This document shows, in pieces, positions 8,022 through 63,635 of a stretch of DNA of 64,000 bases. The position numbers and the translations under genes are program-made. The notes under the pieces were generated by a model. It worked only from the letters and a program-made list of their open reading frames with translations, did not search any database and was not told the origin of the DNA. Every line of letters begins with the position of its first letter. The first letter of the stretch is position 1. The stretch lies in the NCBI GenBank assembly GCA_016191115.1, contig JACPPG010000044.1, forward strand, positions 124,001 through 188,000, in the 5' to 3' direction. This stretch comes from Planctomycetia bacterium. Lineage in GTDB: Bacteria; Planctomycetota; Planctomycetia; Pirellulales; JACPPG01.

Positions 8022-8096
8022 CGGGGGGGTGGGGCATCTTGCCCGCCTTCGGCGTTGGTTGGCGATTCAAAGGCGGGCAGGATGCCCGCCCCCCAT
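8022..8096. repeat. GGCGGGCAAGATGCCCGCC hairpin element
   Basis: Arms GGGGCATCTTGCCCGCCTT and AAGGCGGGCAGGATGCCCGCC enclose a short loop. It belongs to the family also found inside genes at 9037-9110 and 11257-11326 and in gaps at 59581 and 63376. It lies between array gene A and the ferredoxin gene and could act as a terminator, but no U-tract follows. Confidence 0.75.
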
Positions 8097-8101
8097 GAAC
8101 T

Positions 8102-10300
8102 TCACTCGCTCCCTTTTCGCGCCGCCAACTGGCGCGCTCGTTCGAGTCCTGATTTGGCTTCCGCCGAATCGGGCCGCAGGCGCAACGCCTCTTGAAAACG
8201 CACAATCGCCTCGTCCGGCTCGCCGAGTTCCAAAAGCACGGTGCCCAAGGCCACCAGCGCCTCGACGTTCGCCGGCGCAAGGCGCACTACTTCGCCATAG
8301 TGCTTCGCCGCGGGCCGGCGCTTGCCTTGCTGCCGCAGCAGGTCGCCGAGCGTTTGATGGGCCTCGACGAAATCAGGATCGAGCCGAATCGCCTCGGCAA
8401 GGTGATCGGCTGCCCGATCGAGCTCTCCCTTCTTCGCCAGCGCCAGCGCCAGTGCCTGATGAGCGTCGGCATATTCCGGCTTGAGGCGGAGGGCCTCGTC
8501 GAACTGGGCGATCGCCTCGCCCCACTTGCCCTCGCCAAGAAGAACGGTGCCCGATCCGTAGCGCGGGTTGGCGAAACCTGGCCGGAGGCCGCTCGCGTAG
8601 GCAAAATGCTCCTTGGCGTCATGGGGCCGATTCACACGAAGCAGGGCGAAACCGAGGCCGTTCTGGGCTTCGCCGTCGTTAGGATCCAAACTCACGGCCT
8701 TCCGGTAGTGCGCGAGCGCCGCTTGGAGTTGGCCAGGCTGAAATCCGTCGCGATCCCCCAGCTCCAGCAGGATGTGCCCCATGTTGCCCTGAACCGCCGA
8801 GTCGTCCGGTTTGATCGCAAGCGCCGTCTTGAATTGTTCGTAGGCTTCGTCGTAGCGCGACTGGGAATCCAGGAGCGACCCTAAGTTCACCCGCGCGTTC
8901 CAGTTGGCTGGGTTCTTGGCAACGATCGTGCGATAGAAGGTGTCGAGATCGCGGTACGTGCGGGCCTGCTGAAAGGCAAGCGCGCCGAGCGCGACCAACA
9001 GGATTGCCGCCGCACCGACAGCGACGACCGACAGCAACGGGGGGCGGGCATCTTGCCCGCCTTTGACGCGGTTTTTCGGCGCGAAGGCGGGCAAGATGCC
9101 CGCCCCCCGTGAAACGGCAGTCGTCGCCGCGGCCGCCGCCAAAGCGATCAAGGCCACCGCGGCATGATATTGGAAATGATCCGCCACGTAAGAAAAGCGC
9201 GTGAAGTAGACGTTGAAGAAGCCCAACACCGGCGTCAGCACTCCGGCGAAGATCAGCACCGCGGCCAGCGGTCCGCGGCCGATCCGCTCGCGCGCCAGCC
9301 AGAGCGCGGCGATCACGGCGATGCTCGCTATGGGAAAGACATATTGCCACCACGCGCGGGCGTCGACGCTCCAACGCGGGTAGAAAAAGATGATCGGATG
9401 AGGCCAGGCCAGCTTGCCCGCATAAAACCACAGGACGCGCCCGGCGACCAGAATCCGCTCGACCGGGGTGCGATCCCAGTCGTGCCCGCGCGCCACCACG
9501 TGATACTTCTCGACCCACACCGTGACCAGGCCCAAGGTGACGCTGAGCACGAAAAACGGCATGAGCGGCCACACGTCGGCCCAGCCGATCCGCCCGCGCT
9601 TCCACCAGACGATCACCAATAGCACGGCCGGCACAGTGACGACGGCTGTCTTGCTCAAAAGCGCCGCCGCGAACAGCGCCAGCGACAAGGCGTAGAAGGA
9701 CCACCGCCGTCCGGCGGTCGCAGCGGGACCATCGGTCGGCTCCACGGGCGCGAACCGCAGGTAGGCAAGCATCGACAGAAGGGCAAACGCCAGCGAGACG
9801 ACGTTCTTGCGCTCGGTGACCCAGGCAACGCTTTCCACGCACACCGGGTGGACGGCGAAAATCGCCGCCGCCAGCCAGGCGCCCGGCACGCGCAACCGCC
9901 GTAATAACCGCCATACCAGCACCGCGTCGAGCCCGTGTAACAGGACATTGACCAGGTGGTACCCGAACGGTCGGAACCCGTAGAGGTGATACTCCAGCCA
10001 GAACGTCGTGCATACAAGCGGATAGTATTGCGGCAGCGACGTGGGGACGAACCACATGCGGTGCAGGCCGTCGACGGTGCGAAGGGTCGGGTTGCCGGTG
10101 ACGTACGTCTCGTCGTCCCAAACGAATCCGGCCGCCAGCGCCGGCGAGAAGGCGGCGATGACCATCGCCACGAGCAGGCAGCCGGCCAGAATCGATCGCC
10201 ACGGCCCGGTCGATGCCGCGGGTGAGGTCGCCTCGTGCGGGGAAACGCTCTTGTGCGACCTCGGTCGGCCGCGGCCCTCGGTTGCTCTGCGAGACTTCAT
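8102..10300 (-). CDS. TMTC-like membrane protein with TPR domain, array gene A
   Basis: 732 residues from ATG 10300 (MKSRRATEGR), 16 bp after the stop of gene B. A basic cytoplasmic N-terminus precedes about eleven hydrophobic segments (to about residue 445), then a TPR domain to the end. The first external loop has WDDETYV (about residue 59), an acidic pair like that of GT-C glycosyltransferases. HPVCVESVAWVTERKN, LLSKTAV, GRGPLAAVLIFAG and ADHFQYHA are shared by all seven array members. This layout recalls eukaryotic TMTC1-4 (CAZy GT105, dolichyl-phosphate mannose-dependent O-mannosyltransferases). Residues about 397-421 (GILPAFAP..GGQDARPP) are encoded by an inserted palindrome. It is the last gene of the array. 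The function is inferred only; the substrate is unknown. Confidence 0.9.
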   Translation of the reverse strand: MKSRRATEGRGRPRSHKSVSPHEATSPAASTGPWRSILAGCLLVAMVIAAFSPALAAGFVWDDETYVTGNPTLRTVDGLHRMWFVPTSLPQYYPLVCTTFWLEYHLYGFRPFGYHLVNVLLHGLDAVLVWRLLRRLRVPGAWLAAAIFAVHPVCVESVAWVTERKNVVSLAFALLSMLAYLRFAPVEPTDGPAATAGRRWSFYALSLALFAAALLSKTAVVTVPAVLLVIVWWKRGRIGWADVWPLMPFFVLSVTLGLVTVWVEKYHVVARGHDWDRTPVERILVAGRVLWFYAGKLAWPHPIIFFYPRWSVDARAWWQYVFPIASIAVIAALWLARERIGRGPLAAVLIFAGVLTPVLGFFNVYFTRFSYVADHFQYHAAVALIALAAAAATTAVSRGAGILPAFAPKNRVKGGQDARPPLLSVVAVGAAAILLVALGALAFQQARTYRDLDTFYRTIVAKNPANWNARVNLGSLLDSQSRYDEAYEQFKTALAIKPDDSAVQGNMGHILLELGDRDGFQPGQLQAALAHYRKAVSLDPNDGEAQNGLGFALLRVNRPHDAKEHFAYASGLRPGFANPRYGSGTVLLGEGKWGEAIAQFDEALRLKPEYADAHQALALALAKKGELDRAADHLAEAIRLDPDFVEAHQTLGDLLRQQGKRRPAAKHYGEVVRLAPANVEALVALGTVLLELGEPDEAIVRFQEALRLRPDSAEAKSGLERARQLAARKGSE
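9037..9110. repeat. Perfect 27-bp palindrome inside array gene A
   Basis: Arms at 9037-9063 and 9084-9110 are exact inverted complements over 27 bases (core GGCGGGCATCTTGCCCGCC), with a 20-base loop. It is translated in frame as a linker between two membrane segments. It is the same family as 8022-8096. Confidence 0.9.
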
Positions 10301-10316
10301 ACGAGCGACCAGCCGG

Positions 10317-12497
10317 CTAGTTTCGTGGCTTGCGCGATGGCAATCCCAATGCGCGCTGCATGCCATCTTGCGCGGCGCGCGAGTCGGGCTGCACGCGGAG
10401 CGCCTCCTGGAAGTAGTTCATCGCGCGGTCGGCGTCGCCTTGAGCCAGGGCGATCTCGCCCAATTGGACCCAAGGCTCGGCGAACGTCGGCCGCAGCCGG
10501 ATAGCTTCGTTATAGTGCTCGATGGCCTGATCCACTTTTCCCTGGGCCGCCAGCACGCCGCCCAGCAGATAGTGCCCATGCTCGGGCACGCGATCACGCT
10601 TGAGCGACAATTGCAACCGCTCGACCGCCTCGTCGAACCGGCCCTGCTTCGCCAGGGCGATCCCAACGCCCTGCAGGATATCGGGCTCGTTGGGCATGAT
10701 CGCCAATGCGCGGTCGAAGAAGGAGCGTGCCTCCTCGCCGCGTCCCGATTCCGACAGGCACAGGCCAATGCCGTACATCGTCTTGGCGTCGTAGGGGCGG
10801 AGCTCCAACGATCGCGCGAGATGCGTGAAGGCCTCGTCGACCTTGCCGGCCTGCAATAGCGCGAATCCGTAGGCAGTGCGTGCCTGCGGGAAGTTAGGGG
10901 TCATCGTGACCGCCTTCTTCAAACGCGCGAAGGCCTCTTCGGCCTGTCCGGGACGAAATCCCGTTCGCGAGCCGATATTGAGCATGAATGAGCCCGATTC
11001 GCTCAGCACCAAGGTCTCGTTGGGATTGAGGCGCATGGCCTCGTTGTAATACTGTTCGGCCTCGGCATAGCGGCCTTGCTTGTTGCGGATGCCGGCAAGA
11101 TTGAGCCAGCCCGACCAGCTTTGCGGGTTCTTCTTCAGGATGTCGAGCGCCAGGGTCTCGATATCGTGGTGGATCTGCGCCTGGTGAAACGTGAGTGCCC
11201 CCAGCACGGCCAGGAGAATCGCGACTGCGCCTGCGGCGAGGGCGCGGCGGGCCAGCGGGGGGCCGGCATCTTGCCCGCCTTCAGCCCCGGCCGATACGCC
11301 AGAGGCGGGCAGGATGCCGGCCCACCGAGCCACGAGCGCCCAGCCGACCGCCGCAAGCGCTATCAGGGCGATCGCCGCGTGATACTGGAAATGGTCGGCC
11401 ACGAACGCCAGCCGCGTGAAGCTCACCGTGACGAATCCCAGCACCGGCGCGAGCATTCCGGCGAAGATCAAGACGGCCGCCAGCGGTCCGCGCCCGATGC
11501 GGTTTCGCGCCAGCCACAAGCCTATAATCACGCCTACCGCCGCCAACGGGTACAAGTATTGCGAGGGCGCGTGCGCGTCGATCGTCCACTGCGGATAGAA
11601 GAACATGAGCGGGTAGGGCCAGAACACCTTTCCCGCGTAGAACCACAAGGCGCGCCCGGCGATCAGCAGCCGCTCGAGCGGGCCATAGACGCCCACGACC
11701 CACGATCCTTCGAGGTGTTGCCGCTCGACCCACATCGTAATCAAGCCCAGCCCGAGCGCCACGCCGAAGAACGGGAGCAACAGGCCCGCGTCGAACCAGG
11801 GGATGCGGCCGCTCTTCCACCAGTAGATCACCAAGAGTACGGCCGGCATGGGGGCGACGGCCGTCTTGCTCGCCAGCGCCGCGGCAAACAGCACGAGTGC
11901 CAGCGCGTAGTACCAAGGCGAAGGGGGATCGGCATCGTCGGCGCATCCTTCGGGCGGCGCGAACCGCAGGTAGTAGATCATTGACGCGAGCGCCAAGGCC
12001 AGCGACAAGACGTTCTTTCGTTCGGCGACCCAGGCGACGCTCTCGGCGCCCACCGGGTGCACGGCGAAAACGGCCGCCGCCAGCCAGCCGCCCGGCACCT
12101 TCAGCCTCGCCAACAACCGCCACAGGAGAACGGCGCTCATCGCGTGCAGCACGATATTGACGAAGTGGAAGCCCGCCGGCTGCAGCCCCCACAAGTGATA
12201 CTCGATCCAGAACGTAGTGAACGTCAGTGGGTAGTATTGCGGCAACGAGCCGGGGGCGAACCACATCAACCGCAAGCCGTCGAGCGTGCGCAGCGTGACG
12301 TTGTCGCCGATATACATCATGTCGTCGTAGCCGTCGATCTTGGCGGAGAGCGCCGGCAGATACGCCACGAGGGTCATGAGCACCAGCGCGCCGGCCGCCA
12401 CCCATATCGACCGATGGGGCGCGCGATCGCCCGGGTCGCGCGCAGGCGTTGCCGTAGCGGTGGACGACGCTTCTTGGTTTGTCTCGTTCGACGACAT
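10317..12497 (-). CDS. TMTC-like membrane protein with TPR domain, array gene B
   Basis: 726 residues from MSSNETNQEAS. It has the same plan as its neighbours: about eleven membrane segments, then TPRs from about residue 445, including the register KVDQAIEHYNEAIRLRPTFAEPW. The first loop reads GYDDMMYIGDN (about residue 55), keeping both aspartates but with Tyr instead of the Trp seen in A and D-G. It shares YDD, YIGDN and YPLTFT with gene C, which suggests that B and C form a closer pair. The membrane loop at about residues 391-415 (GILPASGVSAGAEGGQDAGPP) is encoded by a palindromic insertion at the position equivalent to that in A. 114 bp containing another palindrome separate it from C, so an internal promoter or attenuation point is possible. 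Confidence 0.9.
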   Translation of the reverse strand: MSSNETNQEASSTATATPARDPGDRAPHRSIWVAAGALVLMTLVAYLPALSAKIDGYDDMMYIGDNVTLRTLDGLRLMWFAPGSLPQYYPLTFTTFWIEYHLWGLQPAGFHFVNIVLHAMSAVLLWRLLARLKVPGGWLAAAVFAVHPVGAESVAWVAERKNVLSLALALASMIYYLRFAPPEGCADDADPPSPWYYALALVLFAAALASKTAVAPMPAVLLVIYWWKSGRIPWFDAGLLLPFFGVALGLGLITMWVERQHLEGSWVVGVYGPLERLLIAGRALWFYAGKVFWPYPLMFFYPQWTIDAHAPSQYLYPLAAVGVIIGLWLARNRIGRGPLAAVLIFAGMLAPVLGFVTVSFTRLAFVADHFQYHAAIALIALAAVGWALVARWAGILPASGVSAGAEGGQDAGPPLARRALAAGAVAILLAVLGALTFHQAQIHHDIETLALDILKKNPQSWSGWLNLAGIRNKQGRYAEAEQYYNEAMRLNPNETLVLSESGSFMLNIGSRTGFRPGQAEEAFARLKKAVTMTPNFPQARTAYGFALLQAGKVDEAFTHLARSLELRPYDAKTMYGIGLCLSESGRGEEARSFFDRALAIMPNEPDILQGVGIALAKQGRFDEAVERLQLSLKRDRVPEHGHYLLGGVLAAQGKVDQAIEHYNEAIRLRPTFAEPWVQLGEIALAQGDADRAMNYFQEALRVQPDSRAAQDGMQRALGLPSRKPRN
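11257..11326. repeat. Palindromic element inside array gene B
   Basis: Arms GGGGGGCCGGCATCTTGCCCG and the complementary GGCGGGCAGGATGCCGGCC flank a 22-base loop. It is an imperfect relative of the element in gene A, read in the same frame and inserted at the equivalent loop. Confidence 0.85.
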
Positions 12498-12611: not shown

Positions 12612-14732
12612 CTACGGGCGCTGCTCCTTCAGTTTTTGGGCCATGGCCTTCTGCATTCCATCTTGTGCGGCGATCGAGCCGGGTTCGATCCGCAGGGCCT
12701 CGTTGAACGAGGCGATCGCCTCATCCACGTGCCCCTGGCTGAGGGCGATCTCGCCCAGGCCGTTGATCGCTTCCACGTAGCGGGGGCGCAGCCGCAGTGC
12801 CTCGGCGTAGCACGACCTTGCGCGATCGAATTGGCCCTGCTTGGCGAGTGCCTTGCCCATCGTGTAGTGGGTTGCGGGCCTTTTGGCGTCGCGGCGCAGG
12901 GCCGTGTCGAGATGGCGCATAGCCTCGTCGAACCACCCGCCGTCGATCAGCACGGCGGCCATCTCCTGGTGAACTGCAGCGTCGGCGGGACTGATCCGCA
13001 GCGCCGCCTCGAAGGTCTTGAGCGCCTCGGCCGGCCGTCCCTCGGCCGCGAGCGCCTGGCCCATCGCGAAGATGGTCGTGGCGTCGTTGGGCTTCAGCTT
13101 GACGGCCATGGCCAGGTGCGGCAGCGCTTCCGCGGCATGCCCCGACCGCAAGAGCGCGAGCCCCAAACCTGTCTGCGCCGGCGCGTAGTTCGGCGACAAC
13201 TCGGCCGCGCGGCGCAGGTTATCCACCATTTCATGCGTTTCGTCGGGCGACAAGGGGGTACGCCGTCCCAGGTTCAACAGAAGAGATCCGATATCCGTCA
13301 GGATCTCCGGATCGTTGGGGTTGTAGCGGCGGGCCTCGCGCAATAGCGCGATCGCCTCGGCCGTTTTGCCCCGCATATTGCGGGCGCCGGCGAGGTTCTG
13401 GTAGGCGGGCCAGCTTTCGGGATTCTTTGCCAATGTGTCGGCCCCGAGCGTCTCGCGATCGTGGTAGATGCGTGCCTGACTGAACGTCAGCGCAGCCAGC
13501 ACCGCCAGGAGGAGGATCATTCCCGCCGCGCAGGCCCATGCCGGGACGTTTAACCGCGATGCCCCCATGGCGCATCCGGCCGCGAACAGCGCCACGAGCG
13601 CGATCGCCGCGTGGTACTGAAAATGGTCAGCCACGAGCGCACAACGCGTGAAGCTCATGTCAAAGAACCCTAGCACCGGCGTCAACATGCCCGCGAAGAT
13701 TAGCACGGCCGCCAATGGCCCGCGCCCGATGCGATGCCGCGCCAGCCACAAGATCACCATAACCACGGCGGCCGCCGCCGGGTACAAATACTGCCACCAG
13801 ACGCGCGCACCAATGGACCATTTCGGGTAGAAAAAAATGAGCGGGTGCGGCCAAACCAGCTTCGCCGCGTAAAACCACACGGCCCGGCCGGCGATCAAAC
13901 CCCGGTGCGCGAGATTGAAGTGCTGTCTGATCCACGGTCCGCTCGCATCCCGGATCTCGACTTGCACCGTGACGACGGCCAGGGCGATCGCCAGGACGAA
14001 AAAGGGGACAAGGGGGCGCGCGCCGCGCCAGGTGACGCGCCCTCGTTTCCACCAATCGATGACCAGGAGCGCCCCGGGCAGCGGCGCCACGGCTGTCTTG
14101 CTCAACAGCGCCGCGGCAAATAGCGCCAAAGATAAGCCGTAGTAGAAAGCCGGCCGCGCGCCGCGCCGCGCCGGCCCATCCTCCTCGTCGGGCGGAGCGA
14201 ACCGCAGGTAGCACAGCATCGACAGGAGCGCCAGGCCCAGCGAGAGGACGTTTTTTCGTTCGGCCGCCCAGGCGACGCTTTCGACGCACACCGGGTGCAG
14301 GGCGAAGACGGCGGACGCGAACCAGGCCCCCGGCACACGCAAACGCAACAAGACCCGCCACACCAGCACGGCATTGGCCGCGTGCAGCAGGATGTTAACC
14401 AGGTGGTAGCCGAACGGGTTGGGCCCCCACAATTGGTATTCGATCCAAAAGCTCGTGAACGTCAGCGGGTAGAACTGCGGCGTCGTGCCTGGGACCCACA
14501 TGCGCAACAAACCGCCGAGCGACCGAAGGGATGCGTTGTCGCCAATGTAGAGATCGTCGTCGTACAGGTGGATGTCGGCCGCGAGCGCCGGCAGATAGGC
14601 CGCCACGACGATGGCCACTAGCGCCGCGGCGGCGGCGATCGCGCGCCCCTGGACGGCGCGCGGCGCGACCCCGGTATCGGCGGAACCGCCGGCCGTCGCC
14701 TGGCCTGTCTCGGATTCGGCAATCACTTTCAT
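12612..14732 (-). CDS. TMTC-like membrane protein with TPR domain, array gene C
   Basis: 706 residues from ATG 14732 (MKVIAESETGQ), seven bases after the stop of D; the longer upstream frame overlaps D and is rejected. The first loop is LYDDDLYIGDN (about residue 57), the variant shared with B. HPVCVESVAWAAERKN, LLSKTAV, GRGPLAAVLIFAGM and ADHFQYHA are present. The loop that carries insertions in A, B and G is short here (ASRLNVPAWA), giving the uninterrupted form. The C-terminal TPR block has about six repeats, for example HVDEAIASFNEALRIEP. The RMWVPGTTPQFYPLTF segment replaces the RMWFxPxSLPQYYPL of most paralogs. The close spacing to D suggests translational coupling. The role is likely membrane-bound glycosyl transfer with TPR-mediated partner binding, by analogy only. 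Confidence 0.9.
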   Translation of the reverse strand: MKVIAESETGQATAGGSADTGVAPRAVQGRAIAAAAALVAIVVAAYLPALAADIHLYDDDLYIGDNASLRSLGGLLRMWVPGTTPQFYPLTFTSFWIEYQLWGPNPFGYHLVNILLHAANAVLVWRVLLRLRVPGAWFASAVFALHPVCVESVAWAAERKNVLSLGLALLSMLCYLRFAPPDEEDGPARRGARPAFYYGLSLALFAAALLSKTAVAPLPGALLVIDWWKRGRVTWRGARPLVPFFVLAIALAVVTVQVEIRDASGPWIRQHFNLAHRGLIAGRAVWFYAAKLVWPHPLIFFYPKWSIGARVWWQYLYPAAAAVVMVILWLARHRIGRGPLAAVLIFAGMLTPVLGFFDMSFTRCALVADHFQYHAAIALVALFAAGCAMGASRLNVPAWACAAGMILLLAVLAALTFSQARIYHDRETLGADTLAKNPESWPAYQNLAGARNMRGKTAEAIALLREARRYNPNDPEILTDIGSLLLNLGRRTPLSPDETHEMVDNLRRAAELSPNYAPAQTGLGLALLRSGHAAEALPHLAMAVKLKPNDATTIFAMGQALAAEGRPAEALKTFEAALRISPADAAVHQEMAAVLIDGGWFDEAMRHLDTALRRDAKRPATHYTMGKALAKQGQFDRARSCYAEALRLRPRYVEAINGLGEIALSQGHVDEAIASFNEALRIEPGSIAAQDGMQKAMAQKLKEQRP

Positions 14733-14739
14733 GATGGCG

Positions 14740-16926
14740 CTACGGACGGTTCTGCCCCGTGGCTTGCAGGGCCCGTTTGAGGTTCTGCTTTGCGACGGCG
14801 TGATCGGGTTGCAAGCGCAGGACCTGCTCAAGGTAGGGGATCGCGCGGTCGGCTTCCTTCAGCTCGATCAACGACGCCGCCAGGTTGTTCAAGGCGTCAA
14901 CATAGTTCGGCCGCAACTGCACGGCACGCGTATACTCGGCCGCAGCCTGGCGGAAATCTCCCTGCCGGAACCGGGTCTGCCCCAGATCGGCGTGAAATTC
15001 CGCCGTGCGCGGCTTAAGTTGCGTCGCCGTAGTCAGGTGCCCGGCGGCCTCGTCCAGACGTCGCAACTGGATGAGCGCCACGCCCAAGGCGTGGTGCGCT
15101 TCCGCGTAGTCCGGGTCGCAGTCGATAGCCTTTTGAAAGTGCTCCGCCGCTTCGTTCCATTGGCCCAGCCCCCCCAAGGTCGTCCCCATGCGAAACAGCG
15201 CATAGGGGCCGTTGGGGCGGACCTCCAGGCTGTGCTGGAAGTATTTGATCGCTTCCTCAGGCTGGTTCGCGTCGACCAACGCAGTGCCCAGGTTGTCGAG
15301 CGCCTCGACGTAGTCGGGATTCAAGCGGAGCGCCTCGCGGTAGTAGTCGATGCCGGTCGCCAGCTCGCTTGGGCCGGGGCGGTACCCGGCCGCTTCGCTG
15401 GCACGTGCGTAGATAATGCCCATGTTGGTCTGAATGCGCGGCTCCTCGGGCTTGATGCGCAGGGCCTCCTTGGCCAGACGGGCCGCCTCCTCGCGCCGGC
15501 CGAGGCCGTGCATGTGCAGGCTGAGATTCAGGTAGGCCGTCCACGAGCCCGGATTGTGCTCGATCACGTGCGTGTACAGGGTTTCGAGGTCGTGATAGAC
15601 GCGGGCTTGCACCATAGTCATCGCCGCAAGGACCACGAGCACCGCCCCTGCCGCAAGCCGCGCGAAGCGGCGGCCATCGGGCTTCAACCGCGCCGCCCAC
15701 GTAGCGGCGCCCGCCGCCACGAGCGCAATAAGTGCGATGCTGGCATGATATTGAAAATGATCGGCCACGAACGAGAACCGCATCGGGTAAACGTCGAAGA
15801 ACCCCAGCGCGGGCATAAGGACGCCGGCGAAGAGGAGCGCTGCCGCCAGCGGGCCCCGCCCGATCCGCCCCCGCGCCAAAAACAGCACGACAAAAGTCGC
15901 CGCCGCGGCCAGCGGAAACAGGTACTGCCACCACGCGTGCCGGTCGATGGTCCAGCGCGGGTAGAAGAACACGAGCGGGTAGGGTAAGACAAGCTTTCCG
16001 GCGTAGAACCACAGCGCGCGACCGGCGATCAGTACGCGGTCCACCGGAGTGAAGCCAAAATCGAGTCCCTTGGCGCCGACGTGGTTTACCTCCAGCGAGA
16101 CGGTAAACAACCCCAATCCCGCCCCCAGCAGAAGAAAGGGCACAAGCGGGACGACGTCGGTTGCCTGAATCCGTCCGCGCTTCCACCAGTAGATCACAAG
16201 CACGACGGCCGGCATCGACGCGACCACCGTCTTGCTCAATAGCGCAGCCGCGAACAGCACTAGCGCCAGCACATACCACGGCCAACCGCCAGACCATCGT
16301 GCGGCCAAAAGCGTCCACGATCCGACGTGGTGGCGCGAGCCCTCGGCGCCGGCCGACGCCTTGTCATCTCCCTCGGGCGGGGCGAAACGAAAGTACGCCA
16401 GCAGCGACGCCAGCGCGAGCACGCCGGCCAATACGTTCTTCCGCTCCGTCGCCCAGGCCACGCTCTCGACGTGGACCGGATGCACGGCGAAGATCGCCGC
16501 GGCGAGCCAGGCGCCGGGCACGCCTAACCGCGAGAGCAACCGCCACAAGAGAATCGCGCTCGTCCCGTGCAGCACGATATTGACCAGGTGATATCCGAGC
16601 GGCGCATCGCCCCACAGGTGATGCTCGATCCAGAACGTCGTGTGGACGAGCGGATAGTACTGCGGCAAGGACCGCGGCTCGAACCACATTCGCTTAAGCC
16701 CCCACAGCGTGCGCAGGGTCGGATTCTCGGTGACGTAGTGCTCGTCGTCCCAGATGAACCCGTTTTCCAGGGCAGGCCAGTACGCGGCCAGCGCCAAGGC
16801 CACGAGCGCGCTGCCCCACAGCGCCGCCCGAGCCAGACCGTCGGCGCCGGTCCGGGCGTTGCGACCGCGGCGGGTCGTCGGCCGCGGCTCTGGTTGCCGG
16901 CGTTCGTTTTTCCTCTGCGTCTTCAT
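14740..16926 (-). CDS. TMTC-like membrane protein with TPR domain, array gene D
   Basis: 728 residues from MKTQRKNERRQ, a strongly basic cytoplasmic tail (TTRRGRNAR) that orients the first membrane segment. The first loop is FIWDDEHYVTENPTL (about residue 58). HPVHVESVAWATERKN is the version closest to the HPxHxExVA signature of eukaryotic TMTC proteins. LLSKTVV, GRGPLAAALLFAGVLMPALGF and ADHFQYHASIALIAL follow. There is no palindromic insertion in the loop near residue 395 (ARLKPDGRRFARL). The TPR block contains clear repeats such as QPEEAIKYFQHSLEVRPNG and YAEAHHALGVAL. The C-terminus ends ALQATGQNRP. Shared PPEGD motifs after the fourth segment link D with G. Confidence 0.9.
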   Translation of the reverse strand: MKTQRKNERRQPEPRPTTRRGRNARTGADGLARAALWGSALVALALAAYWPALENGFIWDDEHYVTENPTLRTLWGLKRMWFEPRSLPQYYPLVHTTFWIEHHLWGDAPLGYHLVNIVLHGTSAILLWRLLSRLGVPGAWLAAAIFAVHPVHVESVAWATERKNVLAGVLALASLLAYFRFAPPEGDDKASAGAEGSRHHVGSWTLLAARWSGGWPWYVLALVLFAAALLSKTVVASMPAVVLVIYWWKRGRIQATDVVPLVPFLLLGAGLGLFTVSLEVNHVGAKGLDFGFTPVDRVLIAGRALWFYAGKLVLPYPLVFFYPRWTIDRHAWWQYLFPLAAAATFVVLFLARGRIGRGPLAAALLFAGVLMPALGFFDVYPMRFSFVADHFQYHASIALIALVAAGAATWAARLKPDGRRFARLAAGAVLVVLAAMTMVQARVYHDLETLYTHVIEHNPGSWTAYLNLSLHMHGLGRREEAARLAKEALRIKPEEPRIQTNMGIIYARASEAAGYRPGPSELATGIDYYREALRLNPDYVEALDNLGTALVDANQPEEAIKYFQHSLEVRPNGPYALFRMGTTLGGLGQWNEAAEHFQKAIDCDPDYAEAHHALGVALIQLRRLDEAAGHLTTATQLKPRTAEFHADLGQTRFRQGDFRQAAAEYTRAVQLRPNYVDALNNLAASLIELKEADRAIPYLEQVLRLQPDHAVAKQNLKRALQATGQNRP

Positions 16927-21351: not shown

Positions 21352-23577
21352 TCAGGGCGCTGTGGGCAATTCCAGGGAATCGCGCGCTCGTTCGAGGTTC
21401 GCGCGCGCCTCTTCGTAATCGGGTTTGACGCGGAGCGCTTGCTCAAGGTAGGGGATCGCGCGGTCGGTCCGACCCATCTTCAAAAGCGTCACCGCCAGAT
21501 TGTTGAGCGCTTGGAAATCACTCGGGCGGCGATCGATCACTTGCCTGTAGTAGTCCACGGCCTCCTCCAACCGTTCTTGACCCACAAGCGCGTTGGCCAG
21601 ACCGAGATAGGCATCCGTGAGGGTAGGATCGATGCGCAGCGCTTCCCGGAAGTGCTCGCTGGCCTCGTCGACCCGTCCTTGCCGGATGAGCACCAACGCC
21701 AGGCCATAGTGGAATTCGCCGTGCTCTCGGTTGAGCTCGATCGTGCGGCGCAAGTAGGACTCGGCCTCGGGCAAGCGACCCACGGCGCCCAAGACGGACC
21801 CCAAATGATAGAGCGCATAGGGATCGCCGGGGAGCAGCTCGACCGCGCGCCGAGAGTGCGCGAGCGCCTCGTCTGACCGATTCTTGCGCACTAGGGCGGT
21901 GCCGAGACTGCCGTGGGCATTGGCGTAGTCGGGATCGAGCCGCAACGCCTCCTTGAACTCCGCCACCGCCTCGTCGAACTCCCCGTCGCGAAACCCGTCG
22001 CGGTTGCCTAAGCGCATCAGGACGGCGCCCAGGTTGTAGTGCAGGACCGCATCGTCGGGGCGCAAGGCGAGCGCCTGGCGGGCCAATTGAATCGTTTCAT
22101 CGCGGCGGCCCAGCGATTCCAAGTACACGCTCAAGTTCGTGTACGCGACCCAACTGGTCGGGCTTTTGGCGATCACGTGGCGAAAGAGCGTCTCGCGGTC
22201 GTGGTACACCTGCGCCTGCCGGAACGAGAGGAATCCCAACGCGGCCAGAACGACGGTCGCAAGGACGGCCGACGGCCATGGGGTGGTGGAAAGTGGGTCA
22301 ACCAATCCGCTTTGCGAAGCCCACGGGTTGCCACCCCTGGGCTTGGCTGCCGCCTGATATTCGGGTTCCTTTGGCGTCGAGGCGGGCGAGATGCCGACCC
22401 TCCGAAACACGAGCGCGGCGCCTGCGCCGGCCAGCGCGATCAATGCCAGGTTAGCGTGGTACTGGAAATGGTCGGCGACAAACGAAAAGCGGAAGGGATA
22501 CACGTTGAGGAACCCGAGCGCGGGCGCGAGCACGCCGGCAAAAATGAGTGCTGCCGCCAGCGGGCCGCGGCCGATTCGTTTCCGCGCCAGCCACAGCGCC
22601 ACAAACGTCGCAAGTGCCGCGGCCGGAAACAAGTATTGCCACCACACCCCGGCGTCGATATCCCACCGCCGATAGTGGAAGACCAGCGGATAGGGCCAGA
22701 TCAGCTTGCCGACGTAGAAGCACAAGGCCCTGCCCGCCACCAGCACGCGGTCCACGGCCGAGAGTTCCCAATCGGCGCCGTGGGCCCCTACGAAGTCCTT
22801 TTCCAGCCATGCCGTGGCGACGCCCATCGCACCACCCACCGCAAAGAATGGCACAAGCGCGAGCACGTCCGCCCACCGCAGGCGCCCTCGCTTCCACCAC
22901 TCAGCGACGAGGATGACCGCCGGCAGCGAGGCGACCACCGTTTTGCTCGCCAGCGCCCCCACGAACAACGCGAGCGAAAGTGCATACCACCCCCAGCGGC
23001 TGTGAGGGCGGGCAGATCGGTAGTCGCCCTCCGGCGGCGCGAAGCGATACCACGCCAAGAGCGACGAGAGCGCCAGCACACAAGAGAGCACGTTCTTGCG
23101 TTCGGTAATCCACGCCACGCTCTCCACCTCGACGGGGTGCAGGGCAAAAATGGCCGCCGCAAACCAGGCTCCCGGCACGCTCAGCCGCGTCAAAACCTGC
23201 CAGAACAGCACCGCCGACAATCCGTGCAGCAGAATGTTGTCCAGGTGGTAGCCGCGCGGGCGGTCGCCCCAAAGGTGATACTCCACCCAGAAGGTCGTAT
23301 GGACCAAGGGATAGTACTGTGGGAGCGAATGGGGCTCGAACCACATCTGACGCAGCCCCTCCAGCGACCGCAACGTCCGATTCTCGACGACGTAGAAGTC
23401 GTCGTCCCAGATGAACCCGTTCCGCAGCGCCGGCAGGTACGTCACGAGCGTCATCGCCACAAGCGCGGCGGCGGCCACCAGGCTCGGCACGCGCCGGCCC
23501 GCGACGCGCCTTGCATCTTCGTTCGCGGGCGTTCGTCGTGCAGCGGCAGGCGGCGGTGAGACTTTGTGGGAGATCAT
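21352..23577 (-). CDS. TMTC-like membrane protein with TPR domain, array gene G
   Basis: 741 residues, the longest and first-transcribed member. Its ATG overlaps the uvrA stop in an ATGA arrangement, pointing to translational coupling. The first loop is FIWDDDFYVVENRTL (about residue 56). HPVEVESVAWITERKN, LASKTVV, GRGPLAAALIFAGVLAPALGF and ADHFQYHANLALIAL follow. Residues about 393-435 form an expanded loop (GISPASTPKEPEYQAAA, then GGNPWASQSGLVD) made from two repeat elements. One is a decayed relative of the GILPA element; the other resembles the CCAAGCCCAGGGGTGGCA element at 42058. The TPR block ends AIPYLEQALRVKPDYEEAR. It is grouped with D by PPEGD. The function is inferred as for the rest of the array. 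Confidence 0.9.
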   Translation of the reverse strand: MISHKVSPPPAAARRTPANEDARRVAGRRVPSLVAAAALVAMTLVTYLPALRNGFIWDDDFYVVENRTLRSLEGLRQMWFEPHSLPQYYPLVHTTFWVEYHLWGDRPRGYHLDNILLHGLSAVLFWQVLTRLSVPGAWFAAAIFALHPVEVESVAWITERKNVLSCVLALSSLLAWYRFAPPEGDYRSARPHSRWGWYALSLALFVGALASKTVVASLPAVILVAEWWKRGRLRWADVLALVPFFAVGGAMGVATAWLEKDFVGAHGADWELSAVDRVLVAGRALCFYVGKLIWPYPLVFHYRRWDIDAGVWWQYLFPAAALATFVALWLARKRIGRGPLAAALIFAGVLAPALGFLNVYPFRFSFVADHFQYHANLALIALAGAGAALVFRRVGISPASTPKEPEYQAAAKPRGGNPWASQSGLVDPLSTTPWPSAVLATVVLAALGFLSFRQAQVYHDRETLFRHVIAKSPTSWVAYTNLSVYLESLGRRDETIQLARQALALRPDDAVLHYNLGAVLMRLGNRDGFRDGEFDEAVAEFKEALRLDPDYANAHGSLGTALVRKNRSDEALAHSRRAVELLPGDPYALYHLGSVLGAVGRLPEAESYLRRTIELNREHGEFHYGLALVLIRQGRVDEASEHFREALRIDPTLTDAYLGLANALVGQERLEEAVDYYRQVIDRRPSDFQALNNLAVTLLKMGRTDRAIPYLEQALRVKPDYEEARANLERARDSLELPTAP
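22270..22400. repeat. Compound repeat insertion inside array gene G
   Basis: Bases near 22375-22400 (GGCGTCGAGGCGGGCGAGATGCCGACCC) are a decayed form of the GGCGGGCAAGATGCCCGCC element. Bases near 22315-22352 (CCACGGGTTGCCACCCCTGGGC) match the type of element at 42058-42090. Both are read in frame and enlarge the loop at the position of the insertions in A and B. Confidence 0.65.
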
Positions 23578-59499: not shown

Positions 59500-59580
59500 A
59501 TCCCAGATCTCAGATTGCCTCGGCCGCCATCCCAGATCTCAAATCTCAGATTGCTTCGGCCACCTCCAGCCTCAGACCAA

Positions 59581-59657
59581 GGCGGGCAGGATGCCCGCCC
59601 CCCAACCACTCATCGTTCATCATTGGCCGAAGACCGCCGGGCTAAACCCGGCGGCTC
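59581..59657. repeat. Two hairpin elements between rplS and yraN
   Basis: GGCGGGCAGGATGCCCGCC (59581-59599) and ACCGCCGGGCTAAACCCGGCGG (59632-59657). Both are single members of families found elsewhere in the window. Just before, CCCAGATCTCAGATT repeats (59496-59552) occur. Confidence 0.75.
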
Positions 59658-63146: not shown

Positions 63147-63635
63147 GCGCGCACTCAGGGTTACATTGCGCAGTCGCCCATGGCTCTTGGCGGCCGCCAA
63201 GAGTGGGGAGCGAGCGCAGCCGTGCCACCAGCGAATTATTCACAGTGTGGCCGGCCCAGTCGGAAACCGACGATTCTAGCCCATCCGAGGGGCGATTGGC
63301 AATCCTCGTTGGCGCGTCCCAGGCGCGCCCCGCACGCGGCCTAGAGCCGGTCCGGCAAAGAGCTTGCGGCGAAGCGGGGGGCGGGCATCCTGCCCGCCTT
63401 CGGGCCAATGATGAGTGATGAATGCGGAATGATAAATGAGGGGGAGACACGGTTGTTAAGCCAGGGACCTCCGCAAACCGCCACCGACTTCCCAGCGCGC
63501 CGCTGGGTTTATCCCGGCGGTCCTCTGTCTTTCCCATTCATCATTCCGCATTCATCATTATTGGCCGGCAGACCGCCGGGATAAACTCGGCCGCTCGCTT
63601 AGATTGGTGACGTGCGAGCTTGGTAAAATGCGTCG
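63147..63635. other. Intergenic region upstream of ffh
   Basis: 489 bp without a gene I can support. It includes GGGGGGCGGGCATCCTGCCCGCC (63376-63402), GGGTTTATCCCGGCGGTCC (about 63507-63525) and ACCGCCGGGATAAACTCGGC (63571-63592), members of two hairpin families. No promoter could be assigned. Confidence 0.45.

Follow-up and report, generated by a model that had tools for sequence, protein, structure and literature searches.

We consider it highly probable that the palindrome translated within two neighbouring membrane-protein genes of this planctomycete is a REPIN-like element, which would be mobilised by a REP-associated tyrosine transposase (RAYT) and would survive inside genes at tolerant loops and linkers when the reading frame is kept. 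The computed basis for this reading comprises the structure of the element, its copy number, the orientation rule of its units, in-frame insertions, empty sites, and linkage to RAYT genes. Counting against it, the GGGG tag of the units departs from GTAG, the tag with measured RAYT activity in the main text of PMC8266576. The window, i.e. the whole stretch of DNA analysed, spans 64,000 nucleotides (C47:124001-188000) of a 6.03-Mb assembly of 93 contigs with a completeness of about 94%, and contains the following features.

8025..8094, no strand: extragenic dimer just 3' of the gene A stop codon, 70 bp, the same length as the A and B dimers (from inverted repeat and fold)
8102..10366, minus strand: gene A, 754 aa, membrane protein whose C-terminal part carries TPR repeats, insertion host
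9037..9110, no strand: REPIN-like inverted unit pair in gene A, in-frame reading RGAGILPAFAPKNRVKGGQDARPP (minus strand), coding signal on both sides
9039..9063, plus strand: unit 1 of the gene A dimer, GGGG tag outermost
9084..9108, minus strand: unit 2 of the gene A dimer
10317..12497, minus strand: gene B, paralog of A, 726 aa, insertion host
11257..11326, no strand: degenerate dimer in gene B, in-frame reading RWAGILPASGVSAGAEGGQDAGPP
12612..14831, minus strand: gene C, element-free sister of B (empty site)
21352..23577, minus strand: gene G, paralog with a relic insertion
22309..22340, minus strand: second palindromic repeat in the gene G loop, CCCAGGGGTGGCAACCCGTGGGCTTCGC, elsewhere found within the spacer of unit dimers
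22381..22403, minus strand: unit relic of gene G, sharing its codon position with the A and B inserts, GGAGGGTCGGCATCTCGCCCGCC, 4/23 mismatches (codon alignment)
59579..59603, minus strand: extragenic single unit (pattern match)
63376..63400, plus strand: extragenic single unit (pattern match)

Seven paralogous membrane/TPR proteins are encoded in tandem between positions 8102 and 23577, and gene A has about 22 matches in the genome. The element in gene A contains a perfect 27-bp inverted repeat (9037-9063/9084-9110; fold z = -11.5 against dinucleotide shuffles), just as an earlier note on this DNA had described it, and the imperfect relative reported for gene B is a 25-bp pair with 92% complementarity (11256-11280/11303-11327; fold z = -5.6 against dinucleotide shuffles). 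The in-frame translations given for both genes are likewise present, as GAGILPA...GGQDARPP in A and WAGILPA...GGQDAGPP in B; they start at residues 421 and 392, respectively, rather than near residue 395 in both. Placement between the last two membrane segments was borne out, the gene A insert lying between hydrophobic segments 401-419 and 447-465, with the TPR region after it. The earlier note was right about A and B, and incomplete in treating them as a pair, as it overlooked that paralog G has a degenerate unit at this codon as well.

Alignment of 100 copies defines a unit of 25 nt with sharp edges: a GGGG tag, present in nearly all units, followed by GGCGGGCA-TC(C/T)-TGCCCGCC, the arms of which form an 8-bp stem around a 3-nt loop, and a terminal TT. 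DNA folding against dinucleotide shuffles supports a hairpin fold for the unit dimers. Read off the sequence, all six reading frames of the unit are open and free of stop codons, giving the peptides GGRASCPP, GGGHPARL, GAGILPA, EGGQDARP, KAGRMPAP, and RRAGCPPP. In the first set of regions and among the matches listed, 28 of the 29 neighbouring unit pairs are arranged + then -, with their GGGG tags facing outward, one is ++, and none is -/+. An inverted pair with outward GGGG tags is the REPIN layout.

The sequence upstream of the GGGG tag displays only a mild pyrimidine preference, and a strong target sequence as determinant of the insertion site was dropped for this reason. We also dropped the idea that dimers move with conserved spacers, since the ATGATGAATG repeat and the second palindrome account for most of the spacer words common to dimers in the genome, the remainder being short and chance-like. 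Among the matches listed, the three window dimers (8025, 9039, and 11257) are the three shortest of 28, each measuring 70 bp; this common length of the dimers near A and B, noticed post hoc, suggests some local relation.

Within the window, a 15-nt core of the unit has 14 sites at up to two mismatches, compared to a mean of 1.95 and a largest value of 7 in shuffles. The exact core occurs in 114 copies in the 6.03-Mb genome, and a reversed (uncomplemented) control pattern gave none. Regions read around these copies contain at least 125 units at up to four mismatches, forming at least 96 elements, of which at least 29 are inverted pairs. The family is mostly extragenic, as is typical of REP/REPIN: among the matches listed, 11 of the 96 elements are intragenic and in frame, whereas coding sequence covers roughly 80% of the same regions, which argues that genes are mostly avoided or purged. 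Copies of the family had already been reported from non-coding gaps of the window, and these are real (at 8025, given as 8022, and at 59581 and 63376). The exact unit is present in six of 297 genomes of the order, the present one included; it was not found in four congeners, and one congener carries a variant form.

Other repeats accompany the units. A second palindromic repeat, CCACGGGT(T/G)GC(C/A)ACCCGTGG, has 12 exact sites in the genome and is often nested in the spacers of GGGG-unit dimers, with five of the 12 exact sites lying within such dimers. Stretches of the AATGATGAATG type adjoin many units (window 59540-59640 and 63384-63440; L064:2669, L041, L076), and in the ImuB-like gene of L064 one is translated beside the unit as SSFIIHHSS. 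Sites of the second palindromic repeat are:

Window 22309-22340; L061:11604; L072:2745; L075:3112; L079:3008; L086:12826; L089:2995

At least 11 intragenic elements are in frame, in several reading frames. Coding was called from a simple codon-usage score on both sides of the element together with Pfam matches, not by an established gene finder. The hosts are:

Gene A (first host)
Gene B (second host)
ALO/FAD oxidase, with a dimer inside the ALO domain
LigD-type ligase, in a linker
Molybdopterin oxidoreductase
ImuB-like Y-family polymerase
Amidohydrolase with a CBM9-like domain, with a dimer
GH57/AmyA protein
PfkB kinase
UbiX-like flavoprotein
NTP_transf_4 protein

DNA-repair genes are among these hosts (LigD in L047, the ImuB-like gene in L064), as they are for other REP families in the main text of PMC3733652. 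Comparison with homologs identifies the intragenic elements as insertions. The 13-residue insert of PfkB is missing from its orthologs in three congeners, and the congener orthologs of ALO lack the insert too, their loop being much shorter. When 48 loops homologous to that of gene A were aligned, allowing R/Y at variable positions, the unit was present in A, B, and G at 0, 1, and 3 mismatches out of 23; it was not found in the other 45, each of which has at least seven mismatches. Thus, the claim of an insertion stands, given that in orthologs and paralogs the loop is short or free of the element. An ordinary ancestral linker that is palindromic by chance has next to no probability: loop length does vary, and some homologs have 15-20 extra residues and no element, but at least 96 elements of the same DNA exist, mostly outside genes, their frames differ between genes, and the empty sites in orthologs and paralogs rule it out. 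Because the reading frame of the unit differs from gene to gene, no particular peptide is conserved, and no sign of a role for the added peptide was seen. The earlier description of a hairpin that makes protein is overstated, as other genes use other frames.

The mobiliser is very probably a RAYT, judged from the genomic setting of the units. The assembly contains three Y1 transposase genes, one of which is bracketed by two unit pairs; no such units were found near the other two (C42:150641 and C68:18625).

L061:4260-4906 (= C42:95.2-95.9 kb): the genome's own RAYT relic, between two unit pairs

Two defects break this gene, a frameshifting 11-nt tandem duplication and an in-frame TGA, and no intact unit-linked RAYT was seen in the assembly, which is about 94% complete. 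A congener (G004) carries an intact RAYT of 195 aa (L190:2665-3252), 62% identical over the 110-aa C-terminal half, which passes the NCBIfam model NF047646 REP_Tyr_transpos (84 bits, cut-off 80). Near-identical dimers of a variant unit, GGGG-GGCGGGCG-TCC-CGCCCGCC, lie on both sides of it. The innermost stem pair of this variant is G-C where the present genome has A-T, i.e. a compensatory change, and an exact-pattern search of G004 yields 19 variant units but no copy of the form seen here. Both the bracketing of the broken RAYT by units and the flanking of the congener RAYT by dimers with a compensatory change support a RAYT as mobiliser of the present family.

A scan of named genomes covering twelve RAYT relatives points in the same direction. 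The relatives are flanked by GGGG-tagged hairpins in Planctomycetota and a Methylococcaceae MAG, by GGAG-tagged hairpins in a Gallionellaceae and an Akkermansia MAG, and by GTGG-tagged hairpins in two Acidobacteria/Terriglobia. Nearly all of these hairpins have stems of 7 to 9 bp and loops of 3 nt (4 nt in L200); the pattern was not clear in three of the twelve (L205, L207, and L209).

In the mechanism we propose, two copies of the REP unit, inverted and with their tags outward, would make up the element. A RAYT, being a single-strand HuH/tyrosine transposase, would recognise the tagged hairpin in its single-stranded form and, like the RAYTs that have been characterised, may cut beside it and join it elsewhere, either copying or moving it, with the tag presumably helping to select the cut site, as in the main text of PMC8266576. 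In that study, exchanging GTAG for GTGG led to cleavage at CC. The majority of copies would survive intergenically and a minority would land in genes, to be retained if they hit a flexible loop or linker and add a net length that preserves the frame; a unit lacking stops in all frames would aid such survival. For A, B, and G, the tolerated place would be the short loop that joins the last two membrane segments. That the only unit-linked RAYT in the assembly is broken counts against this reading as regards present activity. The transposition chemistry, the expression of the lengthened proteins, and neutrality are points that we infer.

The earlier note had likened the element to Rickettsia palindromic elements. 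A mobile-type hairpin inserted in frame was indeed found, and the outcome is the same, given that Rickettsia elements are in-frame palindromes in many unrelated proteins (PMC3733652, main text). The proposed kinship did not hold: where tagged (RPE-4, RPE-6), Rickettsia elements carry CGTC and have no RAYT link, whereas GGGG is the tag in nearly all units here and these lie on either side of RAYT genes; CGTC repeats, according to the main text of PMC3733652, do not. We therefore rejected a CGTC-tagged element without known transposase as a very unlikely identity, and on tag and RAYT linkage a REPIN/RAYT system is the right comparison.

The REP tags given in the main texts of PMC3733652 and PMC6006769 are GTAG, GTGG, and CGTC, and class 3 structures have CnGA. 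The REP of Stenotrophomonas maltophilia is a 23-nt unit with a 4-nt 5' tag, a perfect 8-bp stem, and a 3-nt loop (PMC8266576, main text), and its GTAG REP/REPIN and RAYT system resembles ours in the size of the tagged hairpin, outward inverted pairs, high copy number, mostly extragenic location, and flanking of a RAYT. The differences are the GGGG tag in place of GTAG/GTGG, the planctomycete host, and the broken RAYT. Given that tags vary within the RAYT clade (GTGG, GGAG, GGGG), we class the element as a REP with a variant tag and keep it apart from the GTAG family. TIRYT, described in the main text of PMC3733652, also has a GGGG-starting motif beside Y1 transposase genes; there GGGG belongs to terminal inverted repeats (GGGGWSAS), by description long repeats and not REP hairpins, whereas GGCGGGC follows GGGG here.

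In-frame REPs are already known. The main text of PMC3733652 reports them in unrelated proteins, including two recB genes of Xanthomonas with REPs at about the same site, and the intragenic GTAG REPs of Opitutus terrae and others are, like ours, in-frame singles and dimers in unrelated proteins with DNA-repair hosts (here LigD and the ImuB-like polymerase). Tag and species differ, and here one codon is hit in three paralogs of a single tandem array. REPs also occur in frame within RAYT genes (PMC6006769, main text), where those in subclass 2.4 tnpA_REP genes share the peripheral loop location; the hosts here are ordinary genes instead. In the passages of PMC3733652, PMC6006769, and PMC8266576 picked out by keyword, no GGGG-tagged REP was seen. 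Provisionally, we regard the GGGG tag and the recurrence of the element at one site in neighbouring paralogs as the new details.

How A, B, and G came to share this site is a sub-question of the main explanation. In the codon alignment, the G relic starts at the same CGG codon as the A and B inserts, and among 881,600 positions tested in codon-shuffled versions of gene G, none matched the strict unit pattern as well as the relic. Our first choice, held tentatively, is that a tolerant or preferred loop was hit several times. Gene C, the sister of B (support 1.0), has a normal short loop without the element, A and G fall in other parts of an otherwise poorly resolved tree, and the G insert (a unit plus a second hairpin, about 40 aa) is built unlike the 70-bp dimers of A and B. 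The copies also look as if they differ in age, A being perfect, B having four mismatches, and G being degenerate. However, three independent hits on one codon of one tandem array are a strong demand, and a mild pyrimidine preference offers no strong-target explanation for identical nucleotides.

Spread of one insertion among the tandem paralogs by gene conversion is our second choice, possible but rather unlikely. It would suit the tandem arrangement, the exact same nucleotide, and the shared minimal length of the three window dimers among the matches listed. Yet A-B identity does not exceed B-C identity in the flanks (0.73 vs 0.75 over the upstream 60 codons, 0.53 vs 0.64 downstream), so that a recent long A-B conversion was dropped, and no 10-mer is common to the spacer interiors of A and B. 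A single insertion before duplication of the array, followed by loss from C to F and others, comes third, and we consider it improbable. The same nucleotide in three paralogs and the presence of RAYT and units in a congener would agree with it, but it requires several losses, the arms of A are perfect despite a protein identity of only about 50% between the paralogs, and all of the 45 other loops are at least seven mismatches away from the unit. Doubtful, too, is a wider conjecture that couples repeated hits to tag evolution: across phyla, the guide tetranucleotide of the RAYT clade would have shifted from GTGG to GGGG/GGAG together with a matching cleavage site (GGGG predicting CC), and in this genome the element would have been delivered repeatedly to one exact codon of the membrane-protein array as an intragenic hotspot.

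For annotation of this genome, GILPA/GGQDARPP, KAGRMPAP, GGGHPARL, and GGRASCPP should be taken as repeat translations and not as protein motifs. The in-frame insertions (at least 11, two with empty sites in congeners), together with three paralogs carrying the element at one codon, provide material on the tolerance of proteins to mobile hairpins. The elements described here would add a GGGG tag, in Planctomycetota, to the REP/RAYT system, and a RAYT clade with GTGG, GGGG, and GGAG tags may offer a natural series for how the tag guides cleavage.
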